From: Candidatus Fibrimonadaceae bacterium
GTDB lineage: Bacteria; Fibrobacterota; Fibrobacteria; Fibrobacterales; Fibrobacteraceae
DNA length: 38,148 bases
NCBI GenBank assembly: GCA_031286305.1
Contig: JAITUM010000078.1
Span: forward strand, 1-38,148
Direction: 5' to 3'
Made by a program: the position numbers and the translations under genes. Within the stretch, counting starts at the first letter, position 1, and every line of letters begins with the position of its first letter. Below, one piece after another: positions 1 through 26,538 of the stretch. A model generated the notes under the pieces. That model saw nothing but the letters and a program-made list of their open reading frames with translations, was not told the origin of the DNA and did not search any database.

Positions 1-131
1 CTAAAAACCGGCCTAAAAACCGGCCTAAAAACCGGCCTAAAAACCGGCCTAAAAACCGGCCTAAAAACCGGCCTAAAAACCGGCCTAAAAACCGGCCTAA
101 AAACCGGCCTAAAAACCGACCTAAAAACCGG
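1..131 (+). repeat. 12-bp tandem repeat, 10 copies plus a partial copy, in-frame
   Basis: The unit CTAAAAACCGGC is repeated ten times from base 1 to 120, with one substitution in the tenth copy (GGC to GAC), followed by 11 bases of an eleventh copy. Because 12 is divisible by three, expansion or contraction changes the protein by whole LKTG blocks without a frameshift. The array runs off the left edge, so the true copy number is unknown. Confidence 0.97.
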
Positions 132-312
132 TGATATAGATGGCGTTATTTTAAATTTAATAAAAGATAATAATAAAATTCCCATCTCGAAAATTGCTCA
201 AAAAATTGGAAGAAGTTTGACTGCTACAAAGGATAGAATCTCCAATCTCAAATCCAAAGGTTTGATTGAGCGTATTGGTCCAAATAAGGGTGGTTACTGG
301 AGAGTACTGTGA
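1..312 (+). CDS. 3' end of a Schlafen/AlbA_2-type ATP-binding regulator (partial)
   Basis: Reading frame 1 is open from the window edge to a TGA at 310-312; no start codon is visible, so the gene begins upstream. The first 43 residues are the tetrapeptide LKTG repeated ten times (one copy LKTD) plus an eleventh, encoded by a 12-bp tandem DNA repeat. The rest (about residues 44-103) reads as a winged helix: a helix around ISKIAQKIG, a recognition helix TATKDRISNLKSKG and the ending GLIERIGPNKGGYWRVL. This ending is typical of the C-terminal HTH of AlbA_2/HATPase_c_4 proteins ('RNA-binding domain-containing' or 'ATP-binding' proteins), which often carry short tandem repeats before the HTH. The catalytic domains lie outside the window, so the family call rests on the C-terminus only. 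Confidence 0.72.
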   Translation, partial: LKTGLKTGLKTGLKTGLKTGLKTGLKTGLKTGLKTGLKTDLKTGDIDGVILNLIKDNNKIPISKIAQKIGRSLTATKDRISNLKSKGLIERIGPNKGGYWRVL

Positions 313-389
313 ACAAACTAAAAAATGATTTAACCGATATGTGGATAACGGGAAAAGCACCTTGGGCGTTATGGTTAAAGTCTTTATAA
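312..389 (+). pseudogene. rfbF: C-terminal remnant of glucose-1-phosphate cytidylyltransferase (rfbF)
   Basis: In the frame ending at TAA 387-389 the translation reads LKNDLTDMWITGKAPWALW, then LKSL and stop. The LW-x-x-GKAPWKxW pattern is the hallmark C-terminus of RfbF, which makes CDP-glucose for the enzyme encoded just downstream. The frame is closed upstream by a stop at 285-287, and RfbF similarity begins essentially where the preceding regulator gene stops (312). So the body of rfbF is missing here and only about 25 codons remain. The remnant overlaps the first 19 bases of rfbG, the normal overlapping arrangement of these two genes. An intact rfbF may exist elsewhere. Confidence 0.7.
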
Positions 390-1399
390 CCGGGCACACC
401 GGCTTTAAGGGCACTTGGTTATGCCAAGTTCTTTTATCTGCCGGAGCAGAAGTAACCGGATACGCTTTGGAACCATCCGTTCCTTCGCTTTTTGTTCAAA
501 CCGGAATGGAGAAAAATATCCATTCCGTAATCGGCGATGTTAGAGATAAAGAATCTCTTATCAAAGCTATGCAAGAAGCAAAACCGGATACTGTATTTCA
601 TCTTGCCGCTCAGCCCTTGGTACGCCGTTCTTACCTTGATCCAGTGCTTACTTATGAAACAAATGTTATGGGAACTGTGAATGTTCTTGAGGCTTTGCGT
701 TTAACTTCATCGGTGAAGTCTTTTGTGAATGTTACTACCGATAAAGTTTATGAAAATAAAGAATGGCATTGGGGATACCGAGAAAATGAAAATCTTTGCG
801 GATTTGACCCTTATTCAAATAGCAAGTCGTGTAGCGAATTGGTGACTTATAGTTATCGTAATTCGTTTTTTTATAATAAAGATGCTCCTGCAATTTCCAC
901 TGCCCGTTCAGGCAATGTAATAGGCGGTGGTGATTATTCCGAAGATCGAATTATTCCTGATTGTGTTCGCGCTGCCGTGGCAGGTAAGGATATTATTGTG
1001 CGTAATCCTTGCTCTATTCGCCCTTATCAACATGTGCTTGACTGCCTTTCCGGTTATCTTTTGCTTGCGAAAAAACAATTTATAAATAAAGAACTTGCCG
1101 GAAATTACAATTTTGGACCTGATGATGAAAGTTGCATTAGTACCGGTGCTTTGGCAGATTTATTTTGCGAGGCTTGGGGCAATGACATTGGTTGGGCAAC
1201 TCAGGGAAGCAATGGTCCTTATGAGGCAAACTCTCTGAAATTAGATTGTTCAAAAGCAAAAACCGTGCTGGATTGGAAGCCGCTATGGAATATAAAAACT
1301 GCGGTGGAAAAAACAGTAGAATTTGCTAAGACCGAAACAGATGAAGAGAAAGCAAAGTGCATTGAAAAACAGGTAGAGGAATATTTTTCTACTTTATAG
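371..1399 (+). CDS. rfbG: CDP-glucose 4,6-dehydratase
   Basis: This extended short-chain dehydrogenase converts CDP-glucose to CDP-4-keto-6-deoxyglucose, the entry step to CDP-linked dideoxy- and branched sugars of O-antigens. Visible motifs (numbered from ATG 371) are the NAD-binding TGHTGFKG at residues 7-14, the subfamily signature TTDKVYENKEW near 122-132, and the catalytic Tyr148/Lys152 pair in YSNSK. The length of 342 residues is slightly short of the usual 350-360. A GTG at 341 would add ten residues with no family similarity. ATG 371 is preferred because it puts the protein at the canonical VKVFITGHTGFKG start and lies inside the rfbF tail, as in other rfbFG pairs. The epimerase gene follows after 2 bases. 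Confidence 0.93.
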   Translation: MVKVFITGHTGFKGTWLCQVLLSAGAEVTGYALEPSVPSLFVQTGMEKNIHSVIGDVRDKESLIKAMQEAKPDTVFHLAAQPLVRRSYLDPVLTYETNVMGTVNVLEALRLTSSVKSFVNVTTDKVYENKEWHWGYRENENLCGFDPYSNSKSCSELVTYSYRNSFFYNKDAPAISTARSGNVIGGGDYSEDRIIPDCVRAAVAGKDIIVRNPCSIRPYQHVLDCLSGYLLLAKKQFINKELAGNYNFGPDDESCISTGALADLFCEAWGNDIGWATQGSNGPYEANSLKLDCSKAKTVLDWKPLWNIKTAVEKTVEFAKTETDEEKAKCIEKQVEEYFSTL

Positions 1400-1401
1400 C
1401 G

Positions 1402-1950
1402 ATGAAACTTGAGCAAACAAAAATAGAAGGCGTTTCCATTATTCATTCCGAGCCTTTCAAAGATGAAAGAGGATTTTTCAATCGTATTTTTTGCCAAAAA
1501 GAATTGGAACTTATAAGGCCGGGAATTGTAATAGCCCAAATTAATCATTCCATGACAAAAACAAAAGGGACTATAAGAGGGATGCACTTTCAAAACCCAC
1601 CCCATGCGGAAATGAAAATCATCCGCTGTGTAAAAGGCAGTATTTTTGATGTTGCAGTTGATTTGAGAAAAGATTCGCCGACCTTTTTGCAGTGGCATGG
1701 CGAAATACTCTCTGCGGAAAATATGAAGGCATTGGTTGTGCCGGAAGGCTGTGCTCATGGGTTTCAGTCGCTTGAGGATGATATTGAGATGATATATTTT
1801 CATACACAATTTTACTCAAAACAATCAGAGGGAGCTATACGCTATGATGAACCAATGTTGAATATTCAATGGCCACTGAAACCTACAATTATTTCAGAGC
1901 GCGATGCCGCATACCCTTTTTTAACAAATAATTATAAGGGAATTTTATGA
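1402..1950 (+). CDS. dTDP-4-dehydrorhamnose 3,5-epimerase-like sugar epimerase
   Basis: This 182-residue RmlC-like cupin is the normal length for the family. The conserved KGTIRGMHFQ segment carries the catalytic base His62. KIIRCVKGSIFDVAVDLR (about 73-90) and VVPEGCAHGFQ (112-122) are the usual core strands, and Tyr138 sits where the general acid is expected. RmlC proteins epimerise C3 and/or C5 of 4-keto-6-deoxy nucleotide sugars. Directly after a CDP-glucose 4,6-dehydratase and before a C-methyltransferase, the likely substrate is CDP- rather than dTDP-4-keto-6-deoxyglucose, but that is inferred from context. The stop overlaps the next start (ATGA at 1947-1950). Confidence 0.88.
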   Translation: MKLEQTKIEGVSIIHSEPFKDERGFFNRIFCQKELELIRPGIVIAQINHSMTKTKGTIRGMHFQNPPHAEMKIIRCVKGSIFDVAVDLRKDSPTFLQWHGEILSAENMKALVVPEGCAHGFQSLEDDIEMIYFHTQFYSKQSEGAIRYDEPMLNIQWPLKPTIISERDAAYPFLTNNYKGIL

Positions 1951-3164
1951 ATTGCAGACATTGTGGCAAAGAATTACAATACGAATTTATAGATTTATAT
2001 AATTCGCCGCCATCAAATTCATATTTAACGAAAGAGCAGTTAAATGAACCGGAAGTTTTGTATCCGCTAAAACTGTTTGTTTGCGAAAATTGTTTTTTGG
2101 TTCAAATTGACGAATATAAAAAGTCAACGGATATATTCAATTCTGAATATGCATATTTCAGTTCATATTCTTCGTCATGGCTTGAACATGCAAAAAAATA
2201 TGTAAATATGATAACAGAAAAAATAAAACTTAACAAAAGTTCTTTTGTGGTTGAAATAGCAAGCAACGATGGATATTTGTTGCAATATTTCAAAGAAAAA
2301 AACATCCCCTGCCTTGGGATTGAACCTACTGCTTCTACAGCAAAAGCAGCAAGAGAAAAAGGTATTGAGGTAATAGAAAAATTTTTCAATGAGTCTTTAG
2401 CGCAAACGCTTAAAAAAGCTGATTTGATAGTAGGAAATAATGTTCTTGCCCATGTGCCTGATATAAATAATTTTGTATTGGGTTTGAAGACAACTTTAAA
2501 GCCTAGCGGGATTATAACAATGGAATTCCCTCATTTGCTGAACTTAATAAAGTTAAATCAATTTGATACCATTTATCATGAACATTTTTCTTATTTATCG
2601 TTAATAGCTACGCAAAAAATATTTAATTTGCAGGGGCTAAAAATATTCAACGTCGAAGAACTCTCAACTCATGGCGGAAGTTTGCGCATTTATGCAACGC
2701 ATAATGAAAATACTCTTTTGGCAATAGAAGATAGTGTTAGTGATATAATTAATAAAGAGAAAGCAGCTAAGCTGGATACTATTGAGGGATATAAGGGGTT
2801 TGAGGAAAAAGTTCGAGAAATTAAATGGGATTTTCTTGATTTTTTGCTAAGAGCAAGAAAGGAAGGAAAAAAAATAGCCGCCTACGGTGCTGCCGCCAAA
2901 GGCAATACATTTTTAAACTATTGCGGCATAAGAAATGACATAATTGATTTTGTTATTGATGCTTCTCCGCATAAACAAGGTAAATACTTGCCGTTAAGCT
3001 ATATTCCTATTGTTTCTGAGGACGTGCTAAAGAAGGAAAGACCGGATTATATTATTATTTTGCCGTGGAATTTAAAAGATGAGATAGTGGAACAGCTAGG
3101 CTATACTAAGGATTGGGGTGCAAAATTTGTTACGGCGATTCCTGGGGTATTAAGGGGTTTATAA
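1947..3164 (+). CDS. SAM-dependent sugar C-methyltransferase (TylC3/NovU type)
   Basis: The 405-residue protein has the three-part layout of NDP-hexose C-methyltransferases. An N-terminal zinc-finger-like domain has Cys3, Cys6, Cys46 and Cys49 in two CxxC pairs. A Rossmann SAM-binding domain follows, with VVEIASNDGYLLQYF around 101-115 and GIEP near 124-127. The C-terminal domain contains KKIAAYGAAAKGNT, typical of the Methyltransf_14 module. Family members add a methyl branch at C3 of a 4-keto-6-deoxy sugar, so with the dehydratase and epimerase this suggests a branched-chain deoxysugar. Translation is probably coupled to the epimerase through the ATGA overlap. The exact position methylated cannot be read from the sequence. 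Confidence 0.85.
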   Translation: MNCRHCGKELQYEFIDLYNSPPSNSYLTKEQLNEPEVLYPLKLFVCENCFLVQIDEYKKSTDIFNSEYAYFSSYSSSWLEHAKKYVNMITEKIKLNKSSFVVEIASNDGYLLQYFKEKNIPCLGIEPTASTAKAAREKGIEVIEKFFNESLAQTLKKADLIVGNNVLAHVPDINNFVLGLKTTLKPSGIITMEFPHLLNLIKLNQFDTIYHEHFSYLSLIATQKIFNLQGLKIFNVEELSTHGGSLRIYATHNENTLLAIEDSVSDIINKEKAAKLDTIEGYKGFEEKVREIKWDFLDFLLRARKEGKKIAAYGAAAKGNTFLNYCGIRNDIIDFVIDASPHKQGKYLPLSYIPIVSEDVLKKERPDYIIILPWNLKDEIVEQLGYTKDWGAKFVTAIPGVLRGL

Positions 3165-3182
3165 TTTTCTATCTTATGCAAC
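3165..3182 (+). promoter_or_regulatory. Promoter of the first AAA-ATPase gene, leaderless type
   Basis: TTTTCTATCTT ends at 3175, and the -10-like TATCTT (3170-3175) lies 7 bases before ATG 3183, so the predicted transcription start falls at or next to the start codon. There is no Shine-Dalgarno sequence. Confidence 0.5.
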
Positions 3183-4787
3183 ATGGGAATCCATGCAACA
3201 TACAAATCTGAGAAGGTTGAGAAGAAGTTTAATGTAACAGGCCTTTGCGTGCCGAGCAAGCATTATATGGCAGATATTAGCGGCAAACTGGCTGAAATAA
3301 TGTTGTCGGTGGAACAAGGAGAATATTTTACCATAAACCGTGCAAGACAGTACGGGAAAACTACAACACTTGCTCTTCTGGAAAAACAACTACCAAAGGA
3401 ATACAGCGTAATATCAGTCAGCTTTGAAGGCGTAGATGATAGTGTGTTTGAAACCCCTGAAAAATTTTGCCAAGGAATTTTAAATATATGTTCAAAATAT
3501 TTCAGAGAAAGGAATTTGCCTGGTTCAGAAACTTGGATAGACAGCTCTGTTACAACTTTTGATTTGTTAGATGATTTTTTAACAAAAACTTGTCAAGACA
3601 AAAAAATCGTTTTAATGATAGACGAAGTTGATAAAGTTTCTAATAACTTTATATTCTTGAAATTCTTGGGAATGCTTAGAGACAAGTATTTGAAACGAAG
3701 CAAAGACATAGGCGCAACATTTCAAAGCGTTATTCTTGCCGGTGTTTATGACATTAAGAATTTGAAAGTTAAATTGGTGCAAAGCGGACATTACCAACTA
3801 CAAGATGGCGAAAAGAGAATCAACAGCCCCTGGAACATAGCAATCGACTTTAACGTTGATATGTCACTTAGTGAAAAAGAAATTGCTTCAATGCTTGTGG
3901 AATACGAAAAAGATCATAAAACCGGAATGGATGTAGAGGTTATGGCCGGCAAAATTAGAACCTACACTAACGGTTATCCTTACTTGGTTTCCAGGTTATG
4001 CCAAAAAATAGATTTGAAGTTAAATAAAGACTGGACTTTGAAAGGTTTGAAAGAAGCGGTAAAATTAATTCTTATTGAGCAAAGCACATTGTTTGATGAT
4101 TTAATTAAAAATGTAGAAAATAATGATGAATTAAATGAAGTTCTAAAAAGATGTATTCTTAACGGTGAGCAAATTCCTTTCAATGTGGATAATTATGCTA
4201 TTAGAACAGGTTTAATGTTTGGTATATTCTTACGAAAAGGAGTGTATGTTTCAATACACAACGAAATTTTTGAACTTAGGCTTTATAATTACTATATCTC
4301 TCAAAAGAGTTCTCAAAATAAGGAGAAAGTTCCGGCAACGCTACTTTCGTATGTTGTTGAGAAAGGCAAATTCAATATGGAGCTTGCCATAAAGAAATTT
4401 ATGCAGCATTATTATGAACTATACCACAAGAGCAGAGAATCATTTTTAGAAGATGAGTGTCGCTTGCTGTTTTTAACTTATCTGCGTCCGCTAATAAATG
4501 GCAATGGTTTTTACCATATAGAGGCTGAAACTCGCAATTTGGAACGTACTGATGTTATAGTTGATTTTGATGATGAACAGTTTATAGTTGAATTGAAAGT
4601 TTGGAAGGGTGAAGCTTCGCACGAAAAAGCTCTGGAGCAGATAGCGAATTATTTGGAAAGCAAAAATAAAAGCGAAGGTTATTTGCTTACTTTTGATTTT
4701 AGAAAAAGGGATAATGTAGGTCAGCCTCAGATGAAATGGGTGGAATACAAAGGCAAGCGTATTTTTGACTGCATGGTGGGAGTTTAA
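3183..4787 (+). CDS. AAA-ATPase with C-terminal PD-(D/E)XK nuclease-like domain (paralog 1)
   Basis: The 534-residue protein belongs to the 'AAA-ATPase-like' families common in anaerobic gut bacteria. A conserved CVPSKHYM box (about 22-29) precedes a Walker A-like RARQYGKTTT (53-62), and Walker B is IVLMIDEVD (142-150). Near the C-terminus, Asp457, Glu470 and Lys472 form a D...ExK set matching a PD-(D/E)XK fold (VDFDDEQFIVELKVWKG region). The middle resembles the lid domain of STAND-like ATPases. The biological role of this family is not established; defence or selfish-element functions are suggested for relatives. It has its own leaderless promoter inside a sugar locus and a paralog at 7784-9361, so it looks like an inserted cargo gene. 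Confidence 0.82.
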   Translation: MGIHATYKSEKVEKKFNVTGLCVPSKHYMADISGKLAEIMLSVEQGEYFTINRARQYGKTTTLALLEKQLPKEYSVISVSFEGVDDSVFETPEKFCQGILNICSKYFRERNLPGSETWIDSSVTTFDLLDDFLTKTCQDKKIVLMIDEVDKVSNNFIFLKFLGMLRDKYLKRSKDIGATFQSVILAGVYDIKNLKVKLVQSGHYQLQDGEKRINSPWNIAIDFNVDMSLSEKEIASMLVEYEKDHKTGMDVEVMAGKIRTYTNGYPYLVSRLCQKIDLKLNKDWTLKGLKEAVKLILIEQSTLFDDLIKNVENNDELNEVLKRCILNGEQIPFNVDNYAIRTGLMFGIFLRKGVYVSIHNEIFELRLYNYYISQKSSQNKEKVPATLLSYVVEKGKFNMELAIKKFMQHYYELYHKSRESFLEDECRLLFLTYLRPLINGNGFYHIEAETRNLERTDVIVDFDDEQFIVELKVWKGEASHEKALEQIANYLESKNKSEGYLLTFDFRKRDNVGQPQMKWVEYKGKRIFDCMVGV

Positions 4788-4796
4788 GATTTCTCA

Positions 4797-5537
4797 ATGG
4801 ACGACAGCAAACAATTTTTAGCGGAATGCGAAGCTAACATAAGCTTGCAGGGCAAAGATGCTCAGTTGCAGGCTACTTCCATAGATTGGCTTGAAACGTC
4901 TGGAAAATATAAATATTCGTATAACTTTCAATGGATGGGCAGACCCATTATTCAGTTGCCTCAAGATATACTTATGATGCAGGAATTGATTTGGGAAATC
5001 AAGCCGGATTTGATTATTGAAACCGGTGTTGCTAGAGGTGGTTCTTTGGTTTTTTATGCTTCCATGCTTGAGTTAATTGGTGAAAGAGGTTGTGTGATTG
5101 GGATAGATATTGATATAAGGGAACACAATAGGCGAGAAATTGAAAAGCATCCTATGTTTAAGAATATTCATTTGATTGAAGGTTCATCTATAAGCAATGA
5201 AGTTTTGAGTCAGGTAAATGATTATATTAAATTGAACAATTGCAAAAAAATTTTGGTTGCTTTGGATTCAAATCATACGCATAGCCATGTTTTAGAAGAG
5301 CTTAGGTTTTACTCGCCCTTTGTTAAAAAAGACAGTTACATTGTTGTTTTTGATACGGTTATTGAAGATGTGCAATTAGATTTTCCGGATAGGCCCTGGG
5401 GTAAAGGAAATAATCCTAAAACTGCAGTTTGGGAGTTTTTGAAAGAAAATGATCGTTTTGAAATTGATGAAAGAATAGATGCAAAATTGTTGATTAGTGT
5501 TGCACCAAGTGGATATTTGAGGTGCAAGAGAGGATAG
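4797..5537 (+). CDS. CmcI / rhamnosyl O-methyltransferase family methyltransferase
   Basis: The 246-residue protein resembles the cephalosporin hydroxylase (CmcI) family, which despite the name are mostly SAM- and metal-dependent O-methyltransferases, many acting on glycans. The SAM-binding loop is IIETGVARGGSLVFYAS (about 73-89), followed by GIDIDIREHN with acidic residues at 104 and 106 that may bind ribose or metal. LVALDSNHTHSHV (about 152-164) fits the metal- and substrate-binding His/Asp region. It starts 9 bases after the AAA-ATPase stop with only a weak upstream GGGAG, and is followed after 4 bases by the aminotransferase. A sugar O-methyltransferase is the best guess; the acceptor is unknown. 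Confidence 0.78.
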   Translation: MDDSKQFLAECEANISLQGKDAQLQATSIDWLETSGKYKYSYNFQWMGRPIIQLPQDILMMQELIWEIKPDLIIETGVARGGSLVFYASMLELIGERGCVIGIDIDIREHNRREIEKHPMFKNIHLIEGSSISNEVLSQVNDYIKLNNCKKILVALDSNHTHSHVLEELRFYSPFVKKDSYIVVFDTVIEDVQLDFPDRPWGKGNNPKTAVWEFLKENDRFEIDERIDAKLLISVAPSGYLRCKRG

Positions 5538-5541
5538 CGGC

Positions 5542-6669
5542 ATGAGTAATCTTTCTCAAATATTTTATACTAAGCCGTCAATTACTCAAAAAGAAATTGA
5601 TTATGCTACAGATGCAGCAACTAATGGCTGGGGAGCAAGATGTTATGAATATATTACACGTTTTGAAAATTTACTTAAAGAGCATTTAGGAGTAAATTAT
5701 GCAATAGCAACTTCAAGCTGTACCGGCGCAATGCATATGGGGCTCTCCGCACTTGGCATAGGGTTAGGAGATGAAGTTATTATTGCAGATATTAATTGGA
5801 TAGCGCCTGCAGCGGCTGTTACTTATTTAGGTGCTAAAGTAGTGTTGGTAGATATTTTGCCTAATACATGGTGCATTGATCCAAGTCATGTTGAAAAAGC
5901 AATAACCAAAAATACAAAGGCAATTATTGCAGTTCATTTATATGGTAATCTTTGTAATATGAATGAACTTCTTAGTATTGGAATAAAGTATAATATTCCT
6001 ATAATTGAAGATGCGGCTGAAGCGGTTGGTTCTATTTATAAAGGAAAACGAGCCGGTTCAATGGGAGCTTTTGGAGTATTCTCGTTTCACGGAACAAAAA
6101 CAATTACCACTGGCGAAGGTGGAATATTTGTAACTCAAGATGCAGAGTTGCACGAAAAAGTATTGACTCTTTCTAATCATGGGCGAAGCAGGGCGCAATA
6201 TAAACAGTTCTGGTTTGATGAGGTTGGTTTTAAATACAAGATGTCAAATATTCAAGCGGCAATAGGGTGTGCGCAGATGGAAAGAATTGATGAATTGATA
6301 AGTAAAAAGCGTATAATATTTAAATGGTACGAAAAAAAATTAAAAGGTTTGCTTTTATCTTTAAATCCTGAACCATTGGATTGTCAAAATGGATATTGGA
6401 TGGTGACAATTGTTGTGGATAAAAACATTTCTTTTGATAGAGATTTGTTGTTGCAAGAATTTAAAAATAACAACATTGATGGCAGGGTGTTTTTCTGGCC
6501 TTTATCGCTTGTTCGAAAGGATGATGAACGTTTTGTAAAGGCGGGGGAAAATTCCGTGTCATACGACTTGTATAATCGTAGCGTGAATCTTCCTTGTTAT
6601 AATGACATTACGGAGGAAGAAGTGGATAGAGTGGTTGCGTGTATAAAAAGAATTATTGACCAAAAATGA
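5542..6669 (+). CDS. DegT/DnrJ/EryC1/StrS family sugar aminotransferase
   Basis: This 375-residue PLP enzyme is of normal length. The PLP-anchoring lysine is Lys186 in FSFHGTKTITTGEGG, and Asp157 in IIEDAAEA is the expected pyridine-nitrogen partner. It has a true Lys rather than the His of RfbH/ColD dehydratases, so transamination of a keto-sugar is predicted. The sequence style (TSSCTGAMHMGLSALGIG, then HLYGN) is close to perosamine synthase-like C4 aminotransferases. It has a good Shine-Dalgarno (AGAGGA before ATG 5542) and is followed by an N-formyltransferase, which suggests a 4-amino-4,6-dideoxyhexose that is then formylated. Confidence 0.9.
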   Translation: MSNLSQIFYTKPSITQKEIDYATDAATNGWGARCYEYITRFENLLKEHLGVNYAIATSSCTGAMHMGLSALGIGLGDEVIIADINWIAPAAAVTYLGAKVVLVDILPNTWCIDPSHVEKAITKNTKAIIAVHLYGNLCNMNELLSIGIKYNIPIIEDAAEAVGSIYKGKRAGSMGAFGVFSFHGTKTITTGEGGIFVTQDAELHEKVLTLSNHGRSRAQYKQFWFDEVGFKYKMSNIQAAIGCAQMERIDELISKKRIIFKWYEKKLKGLLLSLNPEPLDCQNGYWMVTIVVDKNISFDRDLLLQEFKNNNIDGRVFFWPLSLVRKDDERFVKAGENSVSYDLYNRSVNLPCYNDITEEEVDRVVACIKRIIDQK

Positions 6670-6679
6670 GGATAACTGC

Positions 6680-7417
6680 ATGAAGGATTGTAAAATTGGG
6701 CTTTTTGCAGATGGTGTTGTCGGAATGGAAGTTGCAAAATTTATTATTACTGAACACCCTGAAGACTTGGCATTTATCTGTTTAACCACATTTGATTCTT
6801 CAGTAAAAGAAACTTGCATAAAATATGGATATTGTGAGCACAGTATATATACTATTGATACGTTTCCAAATAATTTAGATAACATAGATTATTTTATACT
6901 TGCATGGTGGCCTTACATTGTGAAAGAATCATTTTTCAGTATTCCAAAAATAGGAACACTTAATTTCCATCCTAGTTATTTACCTTATAACAGGGGAAAA
7001 CACCCCTCTTTTTGGAATATTATTGAAGAAGTTCCATATGGTGTTACAATTCACTTTGTTGACAAAGGTATAGATTCCGGAGATATAATTTTCCAAAAAG
7101 AAATTGCAAAAGATTGGCTTGATACGGGGTATTCTTTATATCAGAAATCGTTAAAAATGATAGTACAATTATTTATTGATAATTTTGAGAATATCAAATC
7201 AGGGAATTATGAAAGAAGATGTCAGCCAAATTATGGTACATTTCATTACGCAAAAGAAATGAATGAAAAACTTGAATTAAAACTTGATGAAAAGGTTACG
7301 GCTAGAGAATTGTTGAATTTGTTGCGCGCTAAAGACTTTCCCAATTCTCCACAATGTTATTTTGTGGAGAATGATAAGAAATATACGGTAAAGGTGAATA
7401 TAACATTACAGGCATAA
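6680..7417 (+). CDS. Sugar N-formyltransferase (methionyl-tRNA formyltransferase-like)
   Basis: The 245-residue formyltransferase has the catalytic triad of the 10-formyl-THF-dependent family: Asn95 and His97 in GTLNFHPSYLPYNRG, and Asp132 in GIDSGDII. Length and gene context fit the enzymes that formylate 4-amino-4,6-dideoxy sugars (VioF/QdtF-like) rather than Fmt, which is longer and acts on tRNA. ATG 6680 is chosen because GAGG lies 8 bases upstream. The longer ATG 6656 overlaps the aminotransferase and adds eight non-family residues. The upstream aminotransferase would supply the amine substrate. Confidence 0.85.
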   Translation: MKDCKIGLFADGVVGMEVAKFIITEHPEDLAFICLTTFDSSVKETCIKYGYCEHSIYTIDTFPNNLDNIDYFILAWWPYIVKESFFSIPKIGTLNFHPSYLPYNRGKHPSFWNIIEEVPYGVTIHFVDKGIDSGDIIFQKEIAKDWLDTGYSLYQKSLKMIVQLFIDNFENIKSGNYERRCQPNYGTFHYAKEMNEKLELKLDEKVTARELLNLLRAKDFPNSPQCYFVENDKKYTVKVNITLQA

Positions 7418-7435: not shown

Positions 7436-7763
7436 ATGCACAAATTCAACATCACGGATGAACTAGACGAAATAATTCTTCGCAACGACATAGATGAAGG
7501 CTTTCCCGAATTTCGCAAATACCGGCAAGCCATTGAGCTTATACGAAAGTTCTTTGTTGATTATGGCAAAGACAAGCGCATTATGCTCGTTGCATCTAGT
7601 GCAACTGAATCTGCATTCAAACGACGGAACCGAACTTGCCGCTTATTCTCAGAGGGTGATTTACTTATATGATTACTTAGCCGAGCATGGCATTCATTGC
7701 ACAAGGGCTTTTTTTGAATATGAGTTTAATGAAGAAGATTGCAAGTTTGATTGGGATGTTTAG
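7436..7763 (+). pseudogene. Frameshifted small hypothetical gene
   Basis: The frame from ATG 7436 gives MHKFNITDELDEIILRNDI... through KRIMLVASS and then degenerates to a TGA at 7670-7672. The +1 frame from about 7600 continues sensibly as NLHSNDGTELAAYSQRV and on to FEYEFNEEDCKFDWDV, stopping at 7763. The two halves look like one acidic protein of about 108 residues broken by a one-base indel between about 7596 and 7625. I do not recognise the family. It has its own leaderless-type promoter and sits directly upstream of the second AAA-ATPase, so it may have travelled with it. A sequencing error is an alternative. Confidence 0.55.
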
Positions 7764-7783
7764 TTTTTTCTACATTAACCTTA
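7764..7783 (+). promoter_or_regulatory. Promoter of the second AAA-ATPase and probably of the phosphoramidate operon
   Basis: TTTTTTCTACATTAA at 7764-7778 contains the -10-like TACATT (7771-7776), 7 bases before ATG 7784. No other promoter-like motif was noticed before the downstream cytidine-diphosphoramidate-type operon, which begins 3 bases after the ATPase stop. Confidence 0.55.
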
Positions 7784-9361
7784 ATGCTCCAAAAGTACTT
7801 CAACATAGCCGGCCCCTGCCATCCAAGCAAACACTACATGCTTGATCCCTTCCGTAATATAGGCAAAGAATTGGCGGATTTAATAAATCGAGGGCATTAT
7901 TTTGTTATCCATGCCGCTCGGCAAAGCGGAAAAACAACTTTGCTAAAAGAACTCACTCGCAAAATCAATGCAGAAAATGAATATTACACTTTATACTGCT
8001 CATTGGAAAAGATACAAGAAATTACAGAAGCGAAAGAAGCAATGCCAGAGATAATAGACGTTCTAAAAACTGCTTTTTACAGTTCAAATATTCCAAAAGG
8101 CGATTTTTTTGCAAAAGAACCTAGCGGCATAGGTTTTGCTTCTTTACTGCAATTTGAGCTTTTAAAAATCAGCAAAACCTTAGATAAACCATTGATTATA
8201 TTTTTCGACGAAGCAGATTGCCTTAGCAACGGAGCCTTAATTTCTTTTTTAAGACAGCTAAGAATCGGTTATATAAATAAAGATGACGTTCCTTTTGCCC
8301 ACAGTATCGCCTTAGTCGGTATGCGAAACATTCGAGACTACAAAGCAAAAATCAGAGAAGACAAAGAAACGCTTGGCAGCGCAAGCCCGTTTAATATAGT
8401 TACAAAAATTTTCAATTTAGAGAATTTTACAAAAGAAGATGTAATAGAACTTTATAACCAGCACACAAAGCAAACGGGGCAAGTATTTGAAACGGCTGCA
8501 GTAGATTATATTTTTGAGCAAACTCAGGGGCAACCTTGGTTAGTGAATGCGATAGCGGCAGAAGCAATTGAAATTCTACAAAAAGACTACTCCAAACCCA
8601 TTACAGCAGAAATCGCAAAGCAAGCCATTTATGATATAGTTTTAGCAAGGGGAACGCATTTCGATTCGCTTATGGAACGATTGAAGGAGCCGCGTGTTCG
8701 CAGAATTATACAGCCTTTGATACTAGGCGAATATGTTATAGACAAAACTTCCGATGATTACTTATACACAAGAGATTTAGGGTTGATAAGAGAACTCAGC
8801 AGTGGTTTTGTTGAACCAGCGAATCAAATTTACGCAGAAATAATAATTAGAATGCTAAGTGCTTCTCCTCAAGATAAATTGAAAATTGAGAGACCAGATG
8901 ATAATTTACCAAAGTATATTGTCCAAGGGAAAATAGATATAAACGCTTTGTTAAAAGAATTTCAAATTTTCTGGCGCGAGAACAGCGAGATTTGGATAGA
9001 GCGTTACAAGAAGAATCTTTACCAATACGATGAAGCCGCTCCTCATTTGACTATTCAGGCATTTTTGCAAAGAGTTCTCAATGGCGGTGGTCATATTAGC
9101 AGAGAAATGGCTCTTGGCAAGAATCGTTGCGACATTTGCATTGAGTGGGAGGGGCAAAAATATCCTATTGAGCTAAAACTCAAAGGTAGCAGAACTATTG
9201 GTTCTGCTAACGAGCAGATTTTGAAGTATATGGCTAGCACTGGTTCAGAAGAGGGTTGGATTGTTATGTTTGACCGCGGCGCAGAAAAAAGCTGGGACGA
9301 GAAGATTTATATGCGGGAAGAATTTGTTGATGGGAAAAAAATTACAGTGGTGGGGTGTTGA
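7784..9361 (+). CDS. AAA-ATPase with C-terminal PD-(D/E)XK nuclease-like domain (paralog 2)
   Basis: The 525-residue protein is a paralog of the gene at 3183-4787 with the same plan. A CHPSKHYM box (12-19) is followed by Walker A AARQSGKTT (44-52) and Walker B PLIIFFDEAD (136-145). A C-terminal Asp450...Glu463-Leu-Lys465 set (RCDICIEWEGQ, then YPIELKLKG) fits PD-(D/E)XK. ATG 7784 is preferred over 7751 because a TACATT promoter box lies 8 bases upstream of it and the family similarity starts at KYFNIAGPCHPSKHYM. Overall similarity to paralog 1 is clear only in motifs, so this is not a recent duplication. The phosphoramidate-type operon follows after 3 bases, so the two may be co-transcribed. 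Function unknown. Confidence 0.82.
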   Translation: MLQKYFNIAGPCHPSKHYMLDPFRNIGKELADLINRGHYFVIHAARQSGKTTLLKELTRKINAENEYYTLYCSLEKIQEITEAKEAMPEIIDVLKTAFYSSNIPKGDFFAKEPSGIGFASLLQFELLKISKTLDKPLIIFFDEADCLSNGALISFLRQLRIGYINKDDVPFAHSIALVGMRNIRDYKAKIREDKETLGSASPFNIVTKIFNLENFTKEDVIELYNQHTKQTGQVFETAAVDYIFEQTQGQPWLVNAIAAEAIEILQKDYSKPITAEIAKQAIYDIVLARGTHFDSLMERLKEPRVRRIIQPLILGEYVIDKTSDDYLYTRDLGLIRELSSGFVEPANQIYAEIIIRMLSASPQDKLKIERPDDNLPKYIVQGKIDINALLKEFQIFWRENSEIWIERYKKNLYQYDEAAPHLTIQAFLQRVLNGGGHISREMALGKNRCDICIEWEGQKYPIELKLKGSRTIGSANEQILKYMASTGSEEGWIVMFDRGAEKSWDEKIYMREEFVDGKKITVVGC

Positions 9362-9364
9362 GTA

Positions 9365-9862
9365 ATGGTTTGTTGGCTTACAGGATTATCAGGTGCGGGC
9401 AAAACCACCATTGGTAGAGAACTCTACAAACAATGGAAAAAAAACGAACCCGCTCTTGTGTTGCTAGACGGCGACGAACTGCGCGAAGTATTCGGTGGAG
9501 CTTATGGTTACACGCGCGAAGACCGCAAAAAAATAAGTATGCAATACTCAAAACTTTGCAAAATGCTGGCCGAACAAGGAATCAATGTAATATTGTGCGG
9601 AATTATTCTACTTGAAGAAATTCGACAATGGAATTATGCCAATATTCCAAATTACAAAGAAATATTTATATCCGTGCCAATGGATATACTAAAGCAACGA
9701 GATAAAAAAGGGTTGTACGGCGGCAAAGCAGATAATGTGATGGGCGTTGATATTGCAGCAGACTTTCCCGCCAAGCCTGATTTAGAAATTCTTAACGATG
9801 GTTCCAAAACAGCAGAAGAAATAGCAGGCTATATAATGCAGCAATTAGTGGAGAGCAAATGA
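9365..9862 (+). CDS. APS kinase-like kinase, probable cytidine-diphosphoramidate kinase (Cj1415-like)
   Basis: The 165-residue P-loop kinase of the CysC fold has Walker A GLSGAGKTT (7-15) and LLDGDELREVFG near 33-44, where true APS kinases read DGDNVRHGL. A C-terminal GLYGGKADNVMGVD segment follows. No sulfate-assimilation gene is near. Instead it heads an operon with a PEP-synthase-like enzyme, a class I amidotransferase and a nucleotidyltransferase, the exact enzyme set of the Campylobacter jejuni phosphoramidate pathway. There the CysC homolog Cj1415 phosphorylates the 3'-OH of cytidine diphosphoramidate. This assignment is by family plus context. The stop overlaps the next start (ATGA at 9859-9862). 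Confidence 0.78.
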   Translation: MVCWLTGLSGAGKTTIGRELYKQWKKNEPALVLLDGDELREVFGGAYGYTREDRKKISMQYSKLCKMLAEQGINVILCGIILLEEIRQWNYANIPNYKEIFISVPMDILKQRDKKGLYGGKADNVMGVDIAADFPAKPDLEILNDGSKTAEEIAGYIMQQLVESK

Positions 9863-12174
9863 AACTTACCAAAGCCAATACTCTCAAAATTTTGAAAGAC
9901 AGCGAAAACCCACAACTGTTCCGGGTTTTGCCGCAACTTGTATTCACGGCAAAAGAACTATCAAGCAATTCTCAATATGTACAGAAAGCAATCAAAGAAC
10001 AGTTTTCCTACCCATTGATAGTGCGCTCCTCTGCACTGAATGAAGACACGCAAAATTCATCAAATGCAGGGGCATATCTGTCTCTACTGAACATTGAACC
10101 GAGCAATGCATACGAAGCAGCCAAAGAAGTAATGGCATCTTATGAAACACAGAACCCTGAAAACCAAGTGCTGATACAACCAATGCTAAGTGCTGTAACT
10201 TTAAGCGGCGTACTGTTCACCGCATGCCCAAATACAGGCGGCAATTATTACACCATAAATTACGACTGTTCAGGCGACTCAAGCTCCGTTACCTCTGGCA
10301 AAGATGCCGCCCTGCTTATGGTTTTTAAGGACCGAAAAACTGGCAATCCTCGTTTCGATAATCTTATAACCGCAGCTGATACTATATGCAACATTCTCTC
10401 TCAAAAATTCATGGACATCGAATTCGCTTTTTCGGAAGACGATATACCGTATATTTTTCAAGCACGTCCGCTTGTTATGAAAAAGCCTTTGGCTTCTTTT
10501 GAAATTCAATCGGAAGCCTTGGCACGAGCGGAACACTTGATTCAACGTGAAATGCAACCAAAACCTTACGCAAAAGGGCAACGAACAATTTATGGCATAA
10601 TGCCAGACTGGAACCCTGCTGAAATAATAGGCGTGCGCCCAAAACCTTTGGCTTCTTCACTTTATATGCGTTTAATTACAGACCGCAATTGGGCATACCA
10701 GCGAGACAACTACGGTTACCGCAATATGCGCAGCCACCCGCTTATGCTCGACTTTTTAGGCTTACCCTATATCGATACCCGCGTAAGTTTCAATTCCTTT
10801 ATACCAAAAGAGCTTGATGAAGACTTAGCGGAAAAACTTGTAAACTTCTACCTGAACTCGCTTGCGGCAAATCCAAGCAATCACGATAAAATTGAGTTTG
10901 AAATAGCATTTTCTTGCTATACATTCGATATACAGAAAAGAGCCAATATCTTGCTCCAAAATAATTTCTCAAAAACAGAAGTGGGCAATTTGCTTGAATC
11001 TCTGCGGCACCTAACTAATAATATAATCAACGTGCAAAATGGTTTGTGGATGATAGATGCCGCAAAAATACAGAAACTTCAAGAACGGCAAGAAAAAATA
11101 ATGCATAGCGATATGGATATTATTTCAAAAATTTACTGGCTGCTCGAAGATTGCGGACGCTATGGCACCTTGCCTTTTGCCGGTTTGGCGCGAGCGGGGT
11201 TTATCGCTGTGCAGTTGTTAAAGTCGTTGGTTGCCGAGGGTATTTTGTCAGCTGCGGATTATGAAAATTATATGCGAGGTCTTTATACCGTAAGTTCTCA
11301 AATCTCAAAAGACCAAGCAGAAATGTCTAAATCTGCATTCTTGTCAAAATACGGACATTTGCGCCCTGGCACTTATGACATTACATCACCACGATACGAT
11401 GCCGCCCCAGACTTATATTTCAACCATTCCGAAAATGAAACTTTCCCTAAGCATAACGATTTGGAAACAAAAGAAAAATTTTCTCTAACTTTAAAACAAT
11501 ATACAGCGATTAAAAACGAACTGATTACGCACGGCTTGGGTGATGATCCTTTGGCTCTTTTCAATTTTATAAAGGCTGGCATTGAAGGCAGAGAATACTG
11601 TAAATTTGTTTTTTCCAAAAGCTTATCCGATGCCATAGAGTTTATTGCCGAATTGGGTAAATCGCAGGGATTTTCGCGAGAAGAAATGTCTTATATGGAT
11701 ATTTCCATAATTGACGATCTTTTTTCTTCAGCAGATTGCGTGAAAGAATTGCTTGCACACTCTATTGAAACTGGTCGCAAAAAACATGAAAAAACTTTGC
11801 AGCTTGTGATGCCGCCCATTATTCAATCGCCGAGTGATATTTATGTTTTTGAATTTTCCTCCGGCAGCCCAAATTTTATTACAATGTCGCAAATTACGAG
11901 TTCTGTGATTTATAAGGATTATAGCAGAGAAAATTTGGCAGGCTGCATTTTGTTGGTAGAGGCAGCAGACCCTGGATTTGACTGGATTTTCTCCTGCGGC
12001 ATAACAGGGCTTATTACTGCTTATGGTGGTGCCAACTCTCACATGGCAATTAGGGCAGGAGAATTGGGGATACCTGCGGTAATAGGAGCAGGGGAAAAAT
12101 TATTCAACAAGTGGAAAAATGCAAAAACATTGCATATAGACTGTGCGAATAAAAAAGTGGAGGTATTAAAGTGA
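9859..12174 (+). CDS. PEP synthase-like enzyme, probable L-glutamine kinase (Cj1418-like)
   Basis: The 771-residue protein has the ends of a PEP synthase/PPDK with a divergent middle. The N-terminal ATP-grasp domain has YPLIVRSSALNEDT (about 51-64) and SNAGAYLS, and YIFQARPLVM near 195-210. The C-terminal phospho-histidine domain has GGANSHMAIRAGELGIPAV, with catalytic His728. The pyruvate-binding TIM barrel of true PEP synthase is absent. In C. jejuni the same-sized Cj1418 uses this architecture to phosphorylate the amide nitrogen of L-glutamine with ATP, the first step of phosphoramidate synthesis. The neighbouring genes encode the other three enzymes of that pathway, so the assignment is strong by context. 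It overlaps the genes on both sides by 4 bases (ATGA, GTGA). Confidence 0.8.
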   Translation: MKLTKANTLKILKDSENPQLFRVLPQLVFTAKELSSNSQYVQKAIKEQFSYPLIVRSSALNEDTQNSSNAGAYLSLLNIEPSNAYEAAKEVMASYETQNPENQVLIQPMLSAVTLSGVLFTACPNTGGNYYTINYDCSGDSSSVTSGKDAALLMVFKDRKTGNPRFDNLITAADTICNILSQKFMDIEFAFSEDDIPYIFQARPLVMKKPLASFEIQSEALARAEHLIQREMQPKPYAKGQRTIYGIMPDWNPAEIIGVRPKPLASSLYMRLITDRNWAYQRDNYGYRNMRSHPLMLDFLGLPYIDTRVSFNSFIPKELDEDLAEKLVNFYLNSLAANPSNHDKIEFEIAFSCYTFDIQKRANILLQNNFSKTEVGNLLESLRHLTNNIINVQNGLWMIDAAKIQKLQERQEKIMHSDMDIISKIYWLLEDCGRYGTLPFAGLARAGFIAVQLLKSLVAEGILSAADYENYMRGLYTVSSQISKDQAEMSKSAFLSKYGHLRPGTYDITSPRYDAAPDLYFNHSENETFPKHNDLETKEKFSLTLKQYTAIKNELITHGLGDDPLALFNFIKAGIEGREYCKFVFSKSLSDAIEFIAELGKSQGFSREEMSYMDISIIDDLFSSADCVKELLAHSIETGRKKHEKTLQLVMPPIIQSPSDIYVFEFSSGSPNFITMSQITSSVIYKDYSRENLAGCILLVEAADPGFDWIFSCGITGLITAYGGANSHMAIRAGELGIPAVIGAGEKLFNKWKNAKTLHIDCANKKVEVLK

Positions 12175-12764
12175 AGTATATATTCACCAGCCAAAGAGTA
12201 GATATAGCTGCTAATTACAACGAAAAGCGTGATTGTCTGGACCAACGTTGGGCAGATTTTTTGCATGCTTGCGGTTATATTTTAATATCTGTGCCAAATC
12301 ATACCGAAACCGTTGAAACAATGCTGAAATCATTCGCACCAAGCGGCATATTGCTTACCGGAGGCAACAGTCCTGCCCCTTACGAAGGTAACTCTCCAGA
12401 AAGAGACAAAACAGATGCATTACTTTTGGACTATGCCGTTTCTGCCAATATTCCGCTTATGGGTGTTTGCAGGGGCATGCAATCTATTGTGTTGTATTTT
12501 GGTGGCACATTAAAGGAGGTTCCCAATCATGTATCGGCAATACATAGTATTCACGGTAATATAAACCGAGAAGTGAACAGTTATCATTCATTGTCGGTGA
12601 ATTCTATGCCAAGCGAACTTTCTGTATTGGCAAAAACCAAAGACGGAAACATTGAAGCTATTAAACATAATCGTTATAATATAATCGGCATAATGTGGCA
12701 CCCCGAGCGTGAAACGTCATTTTGCAAAGAAGACATAAAGATGTTCAAGGAGTTGTTTTTATGA
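12171..12764 (+). CDS. Class I glutamine amidotransferase-like, probable gamma-glutamyl-CDP-amidate hydrolase (Cj1417-like)
   Basis: The 197-residue peptidase C26/GATase protein has an intact Cys-His-Glu triad: Cys100 in MGVCRGMQ, and His177 and Glu179 in MWHPERE. TGGNSPAPYEGNSPERDKTD (64-83) is the usual gamma-glutamyl hydrolase loop. The PuuD family is the nearest textbook relative, but the operon points to Cj1417, which hydrolyses CDP-L-glutamine to cytidine diphosphoramidate and glutamate. The start is a GTG at 12171 overlapping the previous stop and preceded by an excellent GGAGG at 12160-12164. The stop overlaps the next ATG (12761). Confidence 0.8.
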   Translation: MKYIFTSQRVDIAANYNEKRDCLDQRWADFLHACGYILISVPNHTETVETMLKSFAPSGILLTGGNSPAPYEGNSPERDKTDALLLDYAVSANIPLMGVCRGMQSIVLYFGGTLKEVPNHVSAIHSIHGNINREVNSYHSLSVNSMPSELSVLAKTKDGNIEAIKHNRYNIIGIMWHPERETSFCKEDIKMFKELFL

Positions 12765-13501
12765 AAGCGATTATACTGGCAGCCGGTCGCGGCAGTAGAA
12801 TGGGTGAAGGCACGGCAAATCTCCCTAAGTGCATGATGACACTTGGCGGCAAAACCCTTATAAGTCGTTGTGTAGAAACATTGGAGGCCGCTGAAATTTC
12901 AAGAGAAAATATTGGCATTGTAACCGGCTACAAATCGGAATCTATTAAACAGCATATATCAGGTGTTCATTATTTTCACAATGCGGAGTGGGAAACAACA
13001 AATATGTTCGTGTCGCTTACAAAAGCAAGAGAATGGTTGCTGAATGAGCCATGCATTGTGTGTTATTCAGATATTATTTTCCATAAAAATGCAATAACAA
13101 TGCTTAAAAATTCGCAAGCCTCAATTGCCATAACTTACTATTCAAAATTCTGGGAGCTTTGGGAAAAGCGTTTTGAAAATCCCTTGGACGACTTGGAAAC
13201 CTTTAAAGTTGCCGGCAAAAAACTGCTTGAAATAGGCCAAAGACCGCATTCAAAAGATGAAGTAGAAGGGCAATACATGGGGCTTTTGCGTTTTGAACCA
13301 CAAGGCTGGCAGATTGCTGAAGATGCTGTTAAAAAGCCAATGCCAAAACCGATTGAACGCTTGGACATGACCGCATTGCTTTCTCATTTATTGAATTTAG
13401 GCATTGAAATAGAAGCGATAAAAACGGATGATCCATGGTTTGAATGCGATAGCTTGAGTGATGTTCACATTGCGACCAGTTTTCATGGTTCTGGTACCTA
13501 A
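12761..13501 (+). CDS. Nucleotidyltransferase, probable CTP:phosphoglutamine cytidylyltransferase (Cj1416-like)
   Basis: The 246-residue sugar/choline-phosphate-type nucleotidyltransferase begins MKAIILAAGRGSRMG with the catalytic Lys in LPKCMMTLGGKTL. CYSDIIFHK near 104-112 carries the metal-binding Asp, and WFECDSLSDV near the C-terminus is typical of phosphocholine cytidylyltransferase-like enzymes. In the phosphoramidate pathway the homolog Cj1416 joins CTP and L-glutamine phosphate to give CDP-L-glutamine. ATG 12761 is chosen (AAGGAG upstream, ATGA overlap with the previous stop) rather than the longer 12722 start inside the amidotransferase gene. It is the last recognisable gene of the operon; no phosphoramidate transferase follows. 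Confidence 0.8.
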   Translation: MKAIILAAGRGSRMGEGTANLPKCMMTLGGKTLISRCVETLEAAEISRENIGIVTGYKSESIKQHISGVHYFHNAEWETTNMFVSLTKAREWLLNEPCIVCYSDIIFHKNAITMLKNSQASIAITYYSKFWELWEKRFENPLDDLETFKVAGKKLLEIGQRPHSKDEVEGQYMGLLRFEPQGWQIAEDAVKKPMPKPIERLDMTALLSHLLNLGIEIEAIKTDDPWFECDSLSDVHIATSFHGSGT

Positions 13502-16458: not shown

Positions 16459-17028
16459 ATGGCAAACAGACAACTAATTGAGAATGGAGAATGGAGAATG
16501 GAGAATAACTCCACAAATAGTGGCTCTTTTCGCACAAATAGCGGTTCTTTCTGCAAAAATTCTCAATTCTCAACTCTCAACTCTCAATTAAAAATCCCAC
16601 TATACATTCTAATAATAATAATGCTAGTCTCCTGTGCTACTAAGCCTGGGGTGGTTTTTCAGCATCCGCCGGTTAATCCTGATGCGCCTTTAGCGTTTTT
16701 TGGAGAGGGCAATATGAAAAAAGAAATGCGGCGAGAATATGCAGCGGCACTTCAGAACTCCGGACTTTATAATTTTATTTTTGAAGATTTTTCAGAAGAA
16801 CAAATAAAAAATGCCGTTGAGATTCGTTTGAATTATGAAAGAGAAAAAGGCAATTTAATTTTGACAGCGGAATTTGTAAAAAACGATATGGTATGGTTCA
16901 ACTTTACCATAAAAGAAGAGAAAAATAAAAAAGACAGACAAATCCTTTTGAATCGCTTTGTGCAAGAAGTTCAAAGAATAACCACTCAACCCCCTGCGCC
17001 TTCCCCTACTCCTAACTGTAGAGGGTAA
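16459..17028 (+). CDS. Small predicted lipoprotein with repeat-derived N-terminus
   Basis: The lipoprotein signal is IPLYILIIIMLVSC, with the lipobox Cys at the end. The mature part (about 130 residues) has an N-terminal proline-rich stretch, then a charged alpha/beta region and the Pro-rich tail TQPPAPSPTPNCRG. I do not recognise the family; short predicted secreted lipoproteins of this kind are common in Fibrobacter and Bacteroidetes. The 40 residues before the signal (IENGEWRMEN...NSQFSTLNSQL) are encoded by a palindromic DNA repeat (16476-16589) and are probably not ancestral. ATG 16498 inside the repeat is an alternative start. It lies between hppA and priA in the same direction. Confidence 0.65.
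   Translation: MANRQLIENGEWRMENNSTNSGSFRTNSGSFCKNSQFSTLNSQLKIPLYILIIIMLVSCATKPGVVFQHPPVNPDAPLAFFGEGNMKKEMRREYAAALQNSGLYNFIFEDFSEEQIKNAVEIRLNYEREKGNLILTAEFVKNDMVWFNFTIKEEKNKKDRQILLNRFVQEVQRITTQPPAPSPTPNCRG
16476..16589. repeat. Palindromic ATTCTCAATT-type repeat, copy 1
   Basis: The left arm is a run of GAGAATGGAGAATGG units starting AATTGAG at 16476. The right arm ATTCTCAATTCTCAACTCTC continues to TCAATT at 16589. The loop holds CACAAATAGTGGCTCTTTT and a near-repeat, CACAAATAGCGGTTCTTT. A close copy sits at 26403-26538. The transcript would form a long imperfect hairpin. Confidence 0.85.
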
Positions 17029-25722: not shown

Positions 25723-26445
25723 ATGTTCAAAAAGAACCCATACACTCTTTATATAGTTAGCACCCCTATAGGGAACTTGGAAGATATGACTTTCAGAGCG
25801 GTGAGGGTGTTAAAAGAAGCAACGCTTATTTTGGCGGAAGATACCCGTCACAGCAAGGTATTATTGGAACATTACGGTATTTCAACAAAAACGGAAAGTT
25901 ATCACGATTTTAACAAAGAAAAAGTGACACCCAAATATGTGGAATACTTAAAAAATACCGGCGATATAGCTCTTGTGTGCGATGCAGGAACACCCGGCAT
26001 AGCAGACCCGGCCTTTAATTTGGTTAGAGCGGCAAAACAAGAACAAATTCCTGTGCGAGCAATTCCGGGAGCAAACGCCTTGCTAACCGCTTTGGTGACC
26101 TGCGGTTTTGCAACGGATAAATTTAGATTTGAAAATTTTTCCCCCAAAAAAAGTGCACAAAGGAAACATCTTTTGCAAAAACTTAAAGATAGCGGTGATA
26201 GCACCTTAATTTTTTATGCAAGCCCTCATAATTTGGTAAAATTTCTGAACGAAATAAAAGAAGTTTATGGCGAAGTAAAGGTAGCTTTAATGAGAGAGCT
26301 AACAAAAAAATTTGAAGAACACCTGATAGGCACCCCAAGCGAGCTTCTAGAGCATTATAAAAACTCCAACCCAAAAGGCGAGTTTGTGCTTCTAATAAAT
26401 AAAATTGAGAATGGAGAATGGAGAATTGAAAATGGAGAGAGATAG
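25723..26445 (+). CDS. rsmI: 16S rRNA (cytidine-2'-O)-methyltransferase RsmI
   Basis: RsmI 2'-O-methylates C1402 of 16S rRNA using SAM. The 240-residue protein shows the tetrapyrrole-methylase-fold motifs LYIVSTPIGNLEDMTFRAV (about 9-27), LAEDTRHSKVLLEHYGI, VCDAGTPGIADPAFNLV and AIPGANALLTALV. ATG 25723 is chosen over the 25618 start because a TACCTT box lies 8 bases upstream and the longer start adds 35 atypical residues. The last 14 residues (ENGEWRIENGER region) are encoded by the invading palindromic repeat and extend the natural end near LLINK. The protein is a little shorter than the ~280-residue norm because it lacks the usual C-terminal extension. Confidence 0.93.
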   Translation: MFKKNPYTLYIVSTPIGNLEDMTFRAVRVLKEATLILAEDTRHSKVLLEHYGISTKTESYHDFNKEKVTPKYVEYLKNTGDIALVCDAGTPGIADPAFNLVRAAKQEQIPVRAIPGANALLTALVTCGFATDKFRFENFSPKKSAQRKHLLQKLKDSGDSTLIFYASPHNLVKFLNEIKEVYGEVKVALMRELTKKFEEHLIGTPSELLEHYKNSNPKGEFVLLINKIENGEWRIENGER

Positions 26446-26538
26446 AATTGAGAATGGAGAATTGAGAATGGAGAATAGCTTCACAAATAGCGGCTCTTTC
26501 TGCAAAAATTCTCAATTCTCAATTCTCAATTCTCAATT
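26403..26538. repeat. Palindromic ATTCTCAATT-type repeat, copy 2
   Basis: GAGAATGGAGAATTG-type units from AATTGAG (26403) to about 26480, loop CACAAATAGCGGCTCTTTCTGC, then AAATTCTCAATTCTCAATTC to TCAATT at 26538. It has the same arms and loop motif as copy 1 (16476-16589). It spans the end of rsmI and the beginning of the following lipoprotein gene. Confidence 0.87.

Follow-up and report, generated by a model that had tools for sequence, protein, structure and literature searches.

Organization of the four-gene locus

The DNA examined here is a 38,148-nucleotide contig of a Candidatus Fibrimonadaceae bacterium of the phylum Fibrobacterota (JAITUM010000078.1, assembly GCA_031286305.1; contig C15 of genome G000 in our numbering), and the whole contig is referred to as the window. 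An initial annotation, made from the sequence alone, had proposed that it carries a phosphoramidate-activation operon equivalent to the Cj1415-Cj1418 genes of Campylobacter jejuni. The four genes concerned, here called K, GK, H and CT, lie on the forward strand. K (9365..9862) encodes a putative cytidine diphosphate (CDP)-phosphoramidate 3'-kinase of the Cj1415 type, with 165 residues and the fold of adenylyl-sulfate (APS) kinase, assigned by NF004041/PRK05541 and by its position in a tree. GK (9859..12174) encodes a putative L-glutamine kinase of the Cj1418 type, a 771-residue protein with ATP-grasp and phospho-histidine mobile domains (NF004508/PRK05849 and Pfam). H (12171..12764, GTG start) would be a 197-residue gamma-glutamyl-CDP-amidate hydrolase of the Cj1417 type, with NF045546 as its best model. 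CT (12761..13501) is assigned as a putative cytidine triphosphate (CTP):phosphoglutamine cytidylyltransferase of the Cj1416 type from its NTP_transf_3 domain and its linkage to GK and H.

The enzyme families named by the initial annotation were recovered by Pfam: an APS-kinase fold for K, PPDK_N with a PEP-utilizers mobile domain for GK, a class I amidotransferase for H and NTP_transf_3 for CT. The coordinates of the open reading frames and the junction sequences likewise agree with four genes that overlap by 4 bases, with start and stop codons meeting in AATGAAA (9859), AGTGAAG (12171) and TATGAAA (12761). The length of 246 residues given for CT is correct from the ATG at 12761, and an alternative TTG upstream at 12722 would yield 259 residues. 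The G+C content of the four genes (0.406) matches that of the contig (0.408), which also holds PriA, OmpH, glucokinase and cellulase genes; these features disfavor a chimeric fragment.

Properties of the putative glutamine kinase

GK scored 931 bits against NF004508 (cut-off 501), a model that we take to represent the family of Cj1418. Models of phosphoenolpyruvate (PEP) synthase gave at most 56 bits (cut-off 883) and that of rifamycin/rifampicin phosphotransferase 37 bits (cut-off 999). The initial annotation had raised the possibility that the 771-residue protein groups with PEP synthases or rifampicin phosphotransferases; by these scores it stands apart from both. While the domains of GK resemble those of PEP synthase in fold, the PEP/pyruvate barrel domain was not detected in GK by Pfam, which matched PPDK_N and PEP-utilizers only.

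The identity of GK to any relative is only 25-49%. In an alignment with 27 relatives, the ATP-grasp residues R56, S57, E62 and D63 are invariant, as is the segment T720-G723-G724-N726-S727-H728-M729-I731-R732 (TxxGGxNSHMxIR). In H, Cys100, His177 and Glu179 are invariant among 24 relatives. The intact His728 and Cys-His-Glu triad read from the window are thus conserved throughout both alignments. Structural models of GK and CT predicted from alignments of two rows were unusable (mean predicted local distance difference test scores of 34 and 45, respectively).

Comparison of K with adenylyl-sulfate kinases

K scored 163 bits against NF004041/PRK05541 (cut-off 127) and 94 bits against the apsK model TIGR00455, below its cut-off of 138.7. 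Four other kinases from such gene cassettes likewise scored above the former cut-off and below the latter, and the reverse pattern was seen for two controls, Escherichia coli CysC and a CysC-like gene adjoining sulfate-activation genes. In a tree of 23 rows, K fell inside a group of 12 cassette kinases (support 99/98), apart from the true APS kinases and CysC. The exact split between 13 cassette kinases and 10 APS kinases received support of only 75/43 because of one long-branched kinase from genome G007. Although K shares its fold with CysC, it lacks the signature residues of APS kinases, about 10 positions that are near-invariant in those enzymes being replaced. Three other genomes (G544, G042 and G007) contain a true APS kinase separate from the cassette kinase.

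The gene complement of G000 was also examined. PF01507, which covers CysD or the reductase for 3'-phosphoadenosine 5'-phosphosulfate (PAPS), had no match in G000 and was present in all 14 control genomes; ATP sulfurylase (PF01747) was not found in G000 either. K is the sole full-length gene with an APS-kinase fold there. As the genome is 94.7% complete, the absence of these partners is strong but not absolute evidence. Since CysD or PAPS reductase and ATP sulfurylase are missing, a role for K in sulfate assimilation is very unlikely. The grouping of the kinase with APS kinases of sulfate assimilation, a possibility noted in the initial annotation, was therefore not what either the tree or the genome returned.

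Distribution of the cassette

The presence of GK was counted where its model cut-off was passed. Within the window's phylum this applied to 3 of 168 genomes. Among the Pseudomonadota it applied to 15 of 399, including one centre already known to have GK, or about 3.5% of the genomes sampled there. Plasmids that carry GK were seen in Azospirillum, Roseovarius, Vibrio, Cupriavidus, Microvirga, Agrobacterium and others. GK, H and CT share a single locus in 24 of the 29 loci examined, with a kinase nearby in 15 (two being weak matches), and the order K-GK-H-CT recurs in L045, L046 and L048. Because of this linked recurrence, the gene set is far beyond what chance would produce.

The tree of GK joins the window and G554 as a pair (95/91), and the copy of G007, a genome of the same genus as the window, lies elsewhere with Smac51 (100/99). 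The three copies in the phylum thus do not form a single lineage, and a horizontally moving cassette is the simplest reading for this reason. A search of viral contigs with GK found no relative, and a scan of genome contigs returned one only. An unverified fecal "bacteriophage" scaffold, L021 (MT837632.1), encodes a glutamine kinase and hydrolase at 676-3660 and is probably bacterial DNA or a mislabeled element.

Two further arrangements were observed on plasmids. In Pseudohalocynthiibacter and Vibrio alfacsensis (L015, 13296-16349; L016, 13347-16331), an extra cytidylyltransferase domain is fused on the N-terminal side of the glutamine kinase in addition to a separate CT gene. In Agrobacterium/Allorhizobium (L018, 13902-18981; L054, 11902-16991), GK-H-CT is accompanied by LysE exporters, a CDP-alcohol phosphatidyltransferase and an aminoacyl-tRNA-ligase-like gene, which suggests a soluble phosphoramidate product for these cassettes; the S4 kinase in these loci is broken into two open reading frames.

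Sugar genes upstream of the cassette

Genes upstream of the cassette, all on the forward strand, would act on nucleotide sugars. They encode a CDP-glucose 4,6-dehydratase, RfbG (341..1399; TIGR02622, 434 bits, cut-off 278), an RmlC-like 3,5-epimerase (1402..1950; TIGR01221, 168 bits, cut-off 155.75), a sugar C-methyltransferase (1947..3164; Methyltransf_13 and Methyltransf_14), a protein of the CmcI/rhamnosyl O-methyltransferase family (4797..5537; PF04989, 286 bits), a DegT-type sugar aminotransferase (5542..6669; PF01041, 389 bits) and a sugar N-formyltransferase (6656..7417; Formyl_trans_N and N_formyltrans_C; NF005755, 114 bits, below the cut-off of 238). These genes make a CDP-activated, C-methylated sugar that is probably formamido.

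An intact rfbF, for glucose-1-phosphate cytidylyltransferase, lies at the end of another contig of G000, C276 (locus L096). A blastn search of the window against L096 and a direct comparison revealed a second copy of the 3' end of rfbF at 321..378 on the forward strand, just before rfbG. Because this copy matches the final 58 bp of rfbF at 93% identity, C276 is very probably directly upstream. C276 contains GT2, GT4 and GT25-like glycosyltransferase genes and a polysaccharide pyruvyltransferase. The surface-polysaccharide setting proposed for the operon is strengthened by the CDP-sugar genes of the window and by this probably adjoining contig. In G544 (L048), too, a cassette lies next to these CDP-sugar genes (44-51% identity), and the combination is thus found in two different phyla.

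Several other features were noted in this region. A gene appears to have been inserted between rfbF and rfbG at the contig break (window 1-312; L096 1-305), with a DUF4062-like start on C276, as read from sequence alone, and a winged-helix end in the window; it contains an 11-copy 12-bp repeat (LKTG) at the break and is followed by the 58-bp rfbF duplicate. AAA ATPase genes are scattered through the polysaccharide operon (window 3183-4787 and 7751-9361; L096 9854-11434 and 1104-2678), some with a PD-(D/E)XK nuclease domain, and the DNA of the second window copy (7751-9361) shares 77% identity with that of a C276 copy. At two sites of the window (16476-16589 and 26403-26538), the tandemly repeated heptamers AATGGAG and AATTCTC form pairs. 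A formyltransferase-fold protein, weakly similar to the window formyltransferase, adjoins the cassette kinase in L048 (12282-13049) and L049 (7781-8521).

Candidate transferases and methyltransferases

Proteins adjoining other cassettes suggest two candidate transferase families. Sulfotransferase-fold proteins are found in L014, L039, L040, L043, L048 and others, and Glyphos_transf-like proteins in L016, L041 and L046. The former would fit because the donor is expected to be PAPS-like and 3'-phosphorylated. Proteins combining tetratricopeptide repeats with a sulfotransferase recur around Pseudomonadota cassettes (L013, L039, L043, L044, L047, L049 and L050), and in L041 the cassette adjoins flagellin (11547-13223); these proteins are possible phosphoramidate transferases, and flagella a possible target. 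Several neighbors of about 600 residues were considered as transferases and rejected, as they are ankyrin, chemotaxis, flagellin or CysNC-like proteins.

About a dozen (12-13) other cassettes have a UbiE-like S-adenosylmethionine methyltransferase in their loci. CmcI homologues lie beside cassettes in L019 and L048. The CmcI protein of the window could possibly O-methylate either the sugar or the phosphoramidate; that it stands in for the cassette methyltransferase is speculation.

Interpretation

We consider it highly probable that the four genes carry out the activating part of a pathway for phosphoramidate decoration, of the kind that makes the O-methyl phosphoramidate (MeOPN) of Campylobacter. 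This agrees with the core proposal of the initial annotation and is supported by the family scores, the operon structure and invariant catalytic residues, the kinase clade and control scores, the missing sulfate-assimilation partners, the recurrent linkage and gene order, and the sugar and glycosyltransferase genes. We infer the reactions from the C. jejuni enzymes; the acceptor, the transferase and any protective biological role, such as against phage or host, are also inferred. CT would couple phosphoglutamine and CTP to give gamma-glutamyl-CDP-amidate, from which H would remove glutamate to leave cytidine diphosphoramidate. K would then phosphorylate the 3'-OH of this compound to produce a PAPS-like donor, and a putative transferase would move P-NH2 to a surface polysaccharide containing a sugar that is CDP-derived, C-methylated and probably formamido.

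A number of observations weigh against this proposal. H scored 122 bits against NF045546 (GCDPHdlase, gamma-glutamyl-CDP-amidate hydrolase), below the cut-off of 250. The hydrolases of four other cassettes scored 75-113 bits, and the model is therefore probably narrow, with a cut-off fitted to Campylobacter. CT matched general models only, with no specific model among the library matches listed. A CT-family profile from 13 relatives found the CTP:phosphocholine cytidylyltransferase LicC (1jyk, 1.9e-24) as the best solved structure, and related cytidylyltransferases vary in substrate, CpgD using phosphoglycerate; the assignment of CT thus leans on gene linkage. No phosphoramidate transferase was recognizable by domain among the genes of the window or of the probably adjoining C276 (the initial annotation had advised a search of flanking contigs), and G000 gave no match to Glyphos_transf, Sulfotransfer_1, Sulfotransfer_3 or a profile of the cassette-linked Glyphos-like proteins. 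The earlier statement that no Cj1421/Cj1422-type transferase is visible is in line with this, as judged by domain families rather than by Cj1421 and Cj1422 as query sequences. The cassette-type UbiE-like methyltransferase was not found in the window. Finally, the likeness to the Cj1415-Cj1418 set was drawn through family models and not by direct sequence comparison.

Other explanations were considered against this background. K could be an ordinary adenylyl-sulfate kinase in an operon that supplies PAPS either for sulfation or for assimilating sulfate, its PEP-synthase-like neighbor being there by chance. Pfam and NCBI do name the fold of K an APS kinase, and sulfate-activation genes lie beside a cassette in G007 and V. 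alfacsensis. Yet K lacks the residues invariant in APS kinases and clusters with cassette kinases, a true APS kinase exists separately in G544, G042 and G007, and neither CysD/PAPS reductase, ATP sulfurylase nor a sulfotransferase was found in G000. We regard this explanation as highly improbable. It is unlikely, though less remote, that the cassette makes a soluble phosphoramidate metabolite or antibiotic, with the amino-sugar genes providing its sugar part, instead of decorating a glycan. The operon itself contains no glycosyltransferase and the Agrobacterium/Allorhizobium copies sit in a natural-product-like setting (LysE, aminoacyl-tRNA-ligase-like and CDP-alcohol phosphatidyltransferase genes), but the contig with rfbF, which probably joins upstream, supplies glycosyltransferases and a pyruvyltransferase for a polysaccharide, and other cassettes sit in exopolysaccharide or flagellin regions.

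The same chemistry might also use some other amide or phosphate compound and yield another CDP-activated group. The low identity of GK to all its relatives, the scores of H and CT below every specific equivalog cut-off and the varied substrates of cytidylyltransferases with the CT fold would allow it. A gamma-glutamyl hydrolase-like step beside a member of the glutamine-kinase family, in a constant gene set, argues instead for one pathway, and we think a different substrate improbable.

Beyond phosphoramidate activation as such, we propose tentatively, as something possible rather than probable, that activated phosphoramidate serves many bacteria as a horizontally moving donor system, much as PAPS serves sulfation, and that it feeds transferase families that differ between bacteria, as the sulfotransferase-fold and CDP-glycerol-transferase-like neighbors of other cassettes would suggest, and that here a putative transferase places P-NH2 on a polymer of a CDP-derived formamido-sugar. 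The pathway has been known mainly from the Campylobacter capsule, and the cassette is scattered through many bacteria. Its presence in the window and its frequency in the sampled Pseudomonadota would make biological P-N bond formation of the MeOPN kind a general, transferable bacterial trait. The loci provide diverse pathway enzymes and named transferase candidates, and they suggest that an entire subfamily is wrongly labeled "adenylyl-sulfate kinase" in databases.

Comparison with known systems

C. jejuni needs cj1415-cj1418 for MeOPN, and Cj1421 and Cj1422 transfer the group (PMC3907429). Three of the C. jejuni proteins carry the annotations CDP-amidate kinase, phosphoglutamine cytidylyltransferase and gamma-glutamyl-CDP-amidate hydrolase. 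The window and cj1415c-cj1418c share the same four enzyme families in one gene group within a surface-polysaccharide locus. They differ in order, K-GK-H-CT here and, as the c-strand numbering implies, GK-H-CT-K in C. jejuni. Unlike C. jejuni, the window has no recognizable Cj1421/1422-type transferase or cassette methyltransferase nearby, and CDP-sugar, aminotransferase and formyltransferase genes accompany its cassette.

The Pseudomonadota cassettes of G554 and G544 are among the related loci with the gene order of the window. That of G554 (L046) adds Glyphos_transf-like proteins and a cassette methyltransferase without counterparts in the window. That of G544 (L048) includes RfbF, RfbG, RmlC-like, C-methyltransferase and CmcI genes, as do the window and, for rfbF, the probably adjoining C276, whereas its sulfotransferase-fold protein has no counterpart there. 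Glutamine kinase was called specific to C. jejuni in a 2022 review (PMC9561416), and an MeOPN-like cluster in a cell-surface region of a Borg, an archaeal extrachromosomal element, was reported outside Campylobacter in 2025 (PMC12660748); it is likened to ours by its published description only. The window is another member of this known kind of pathway in a new setting.

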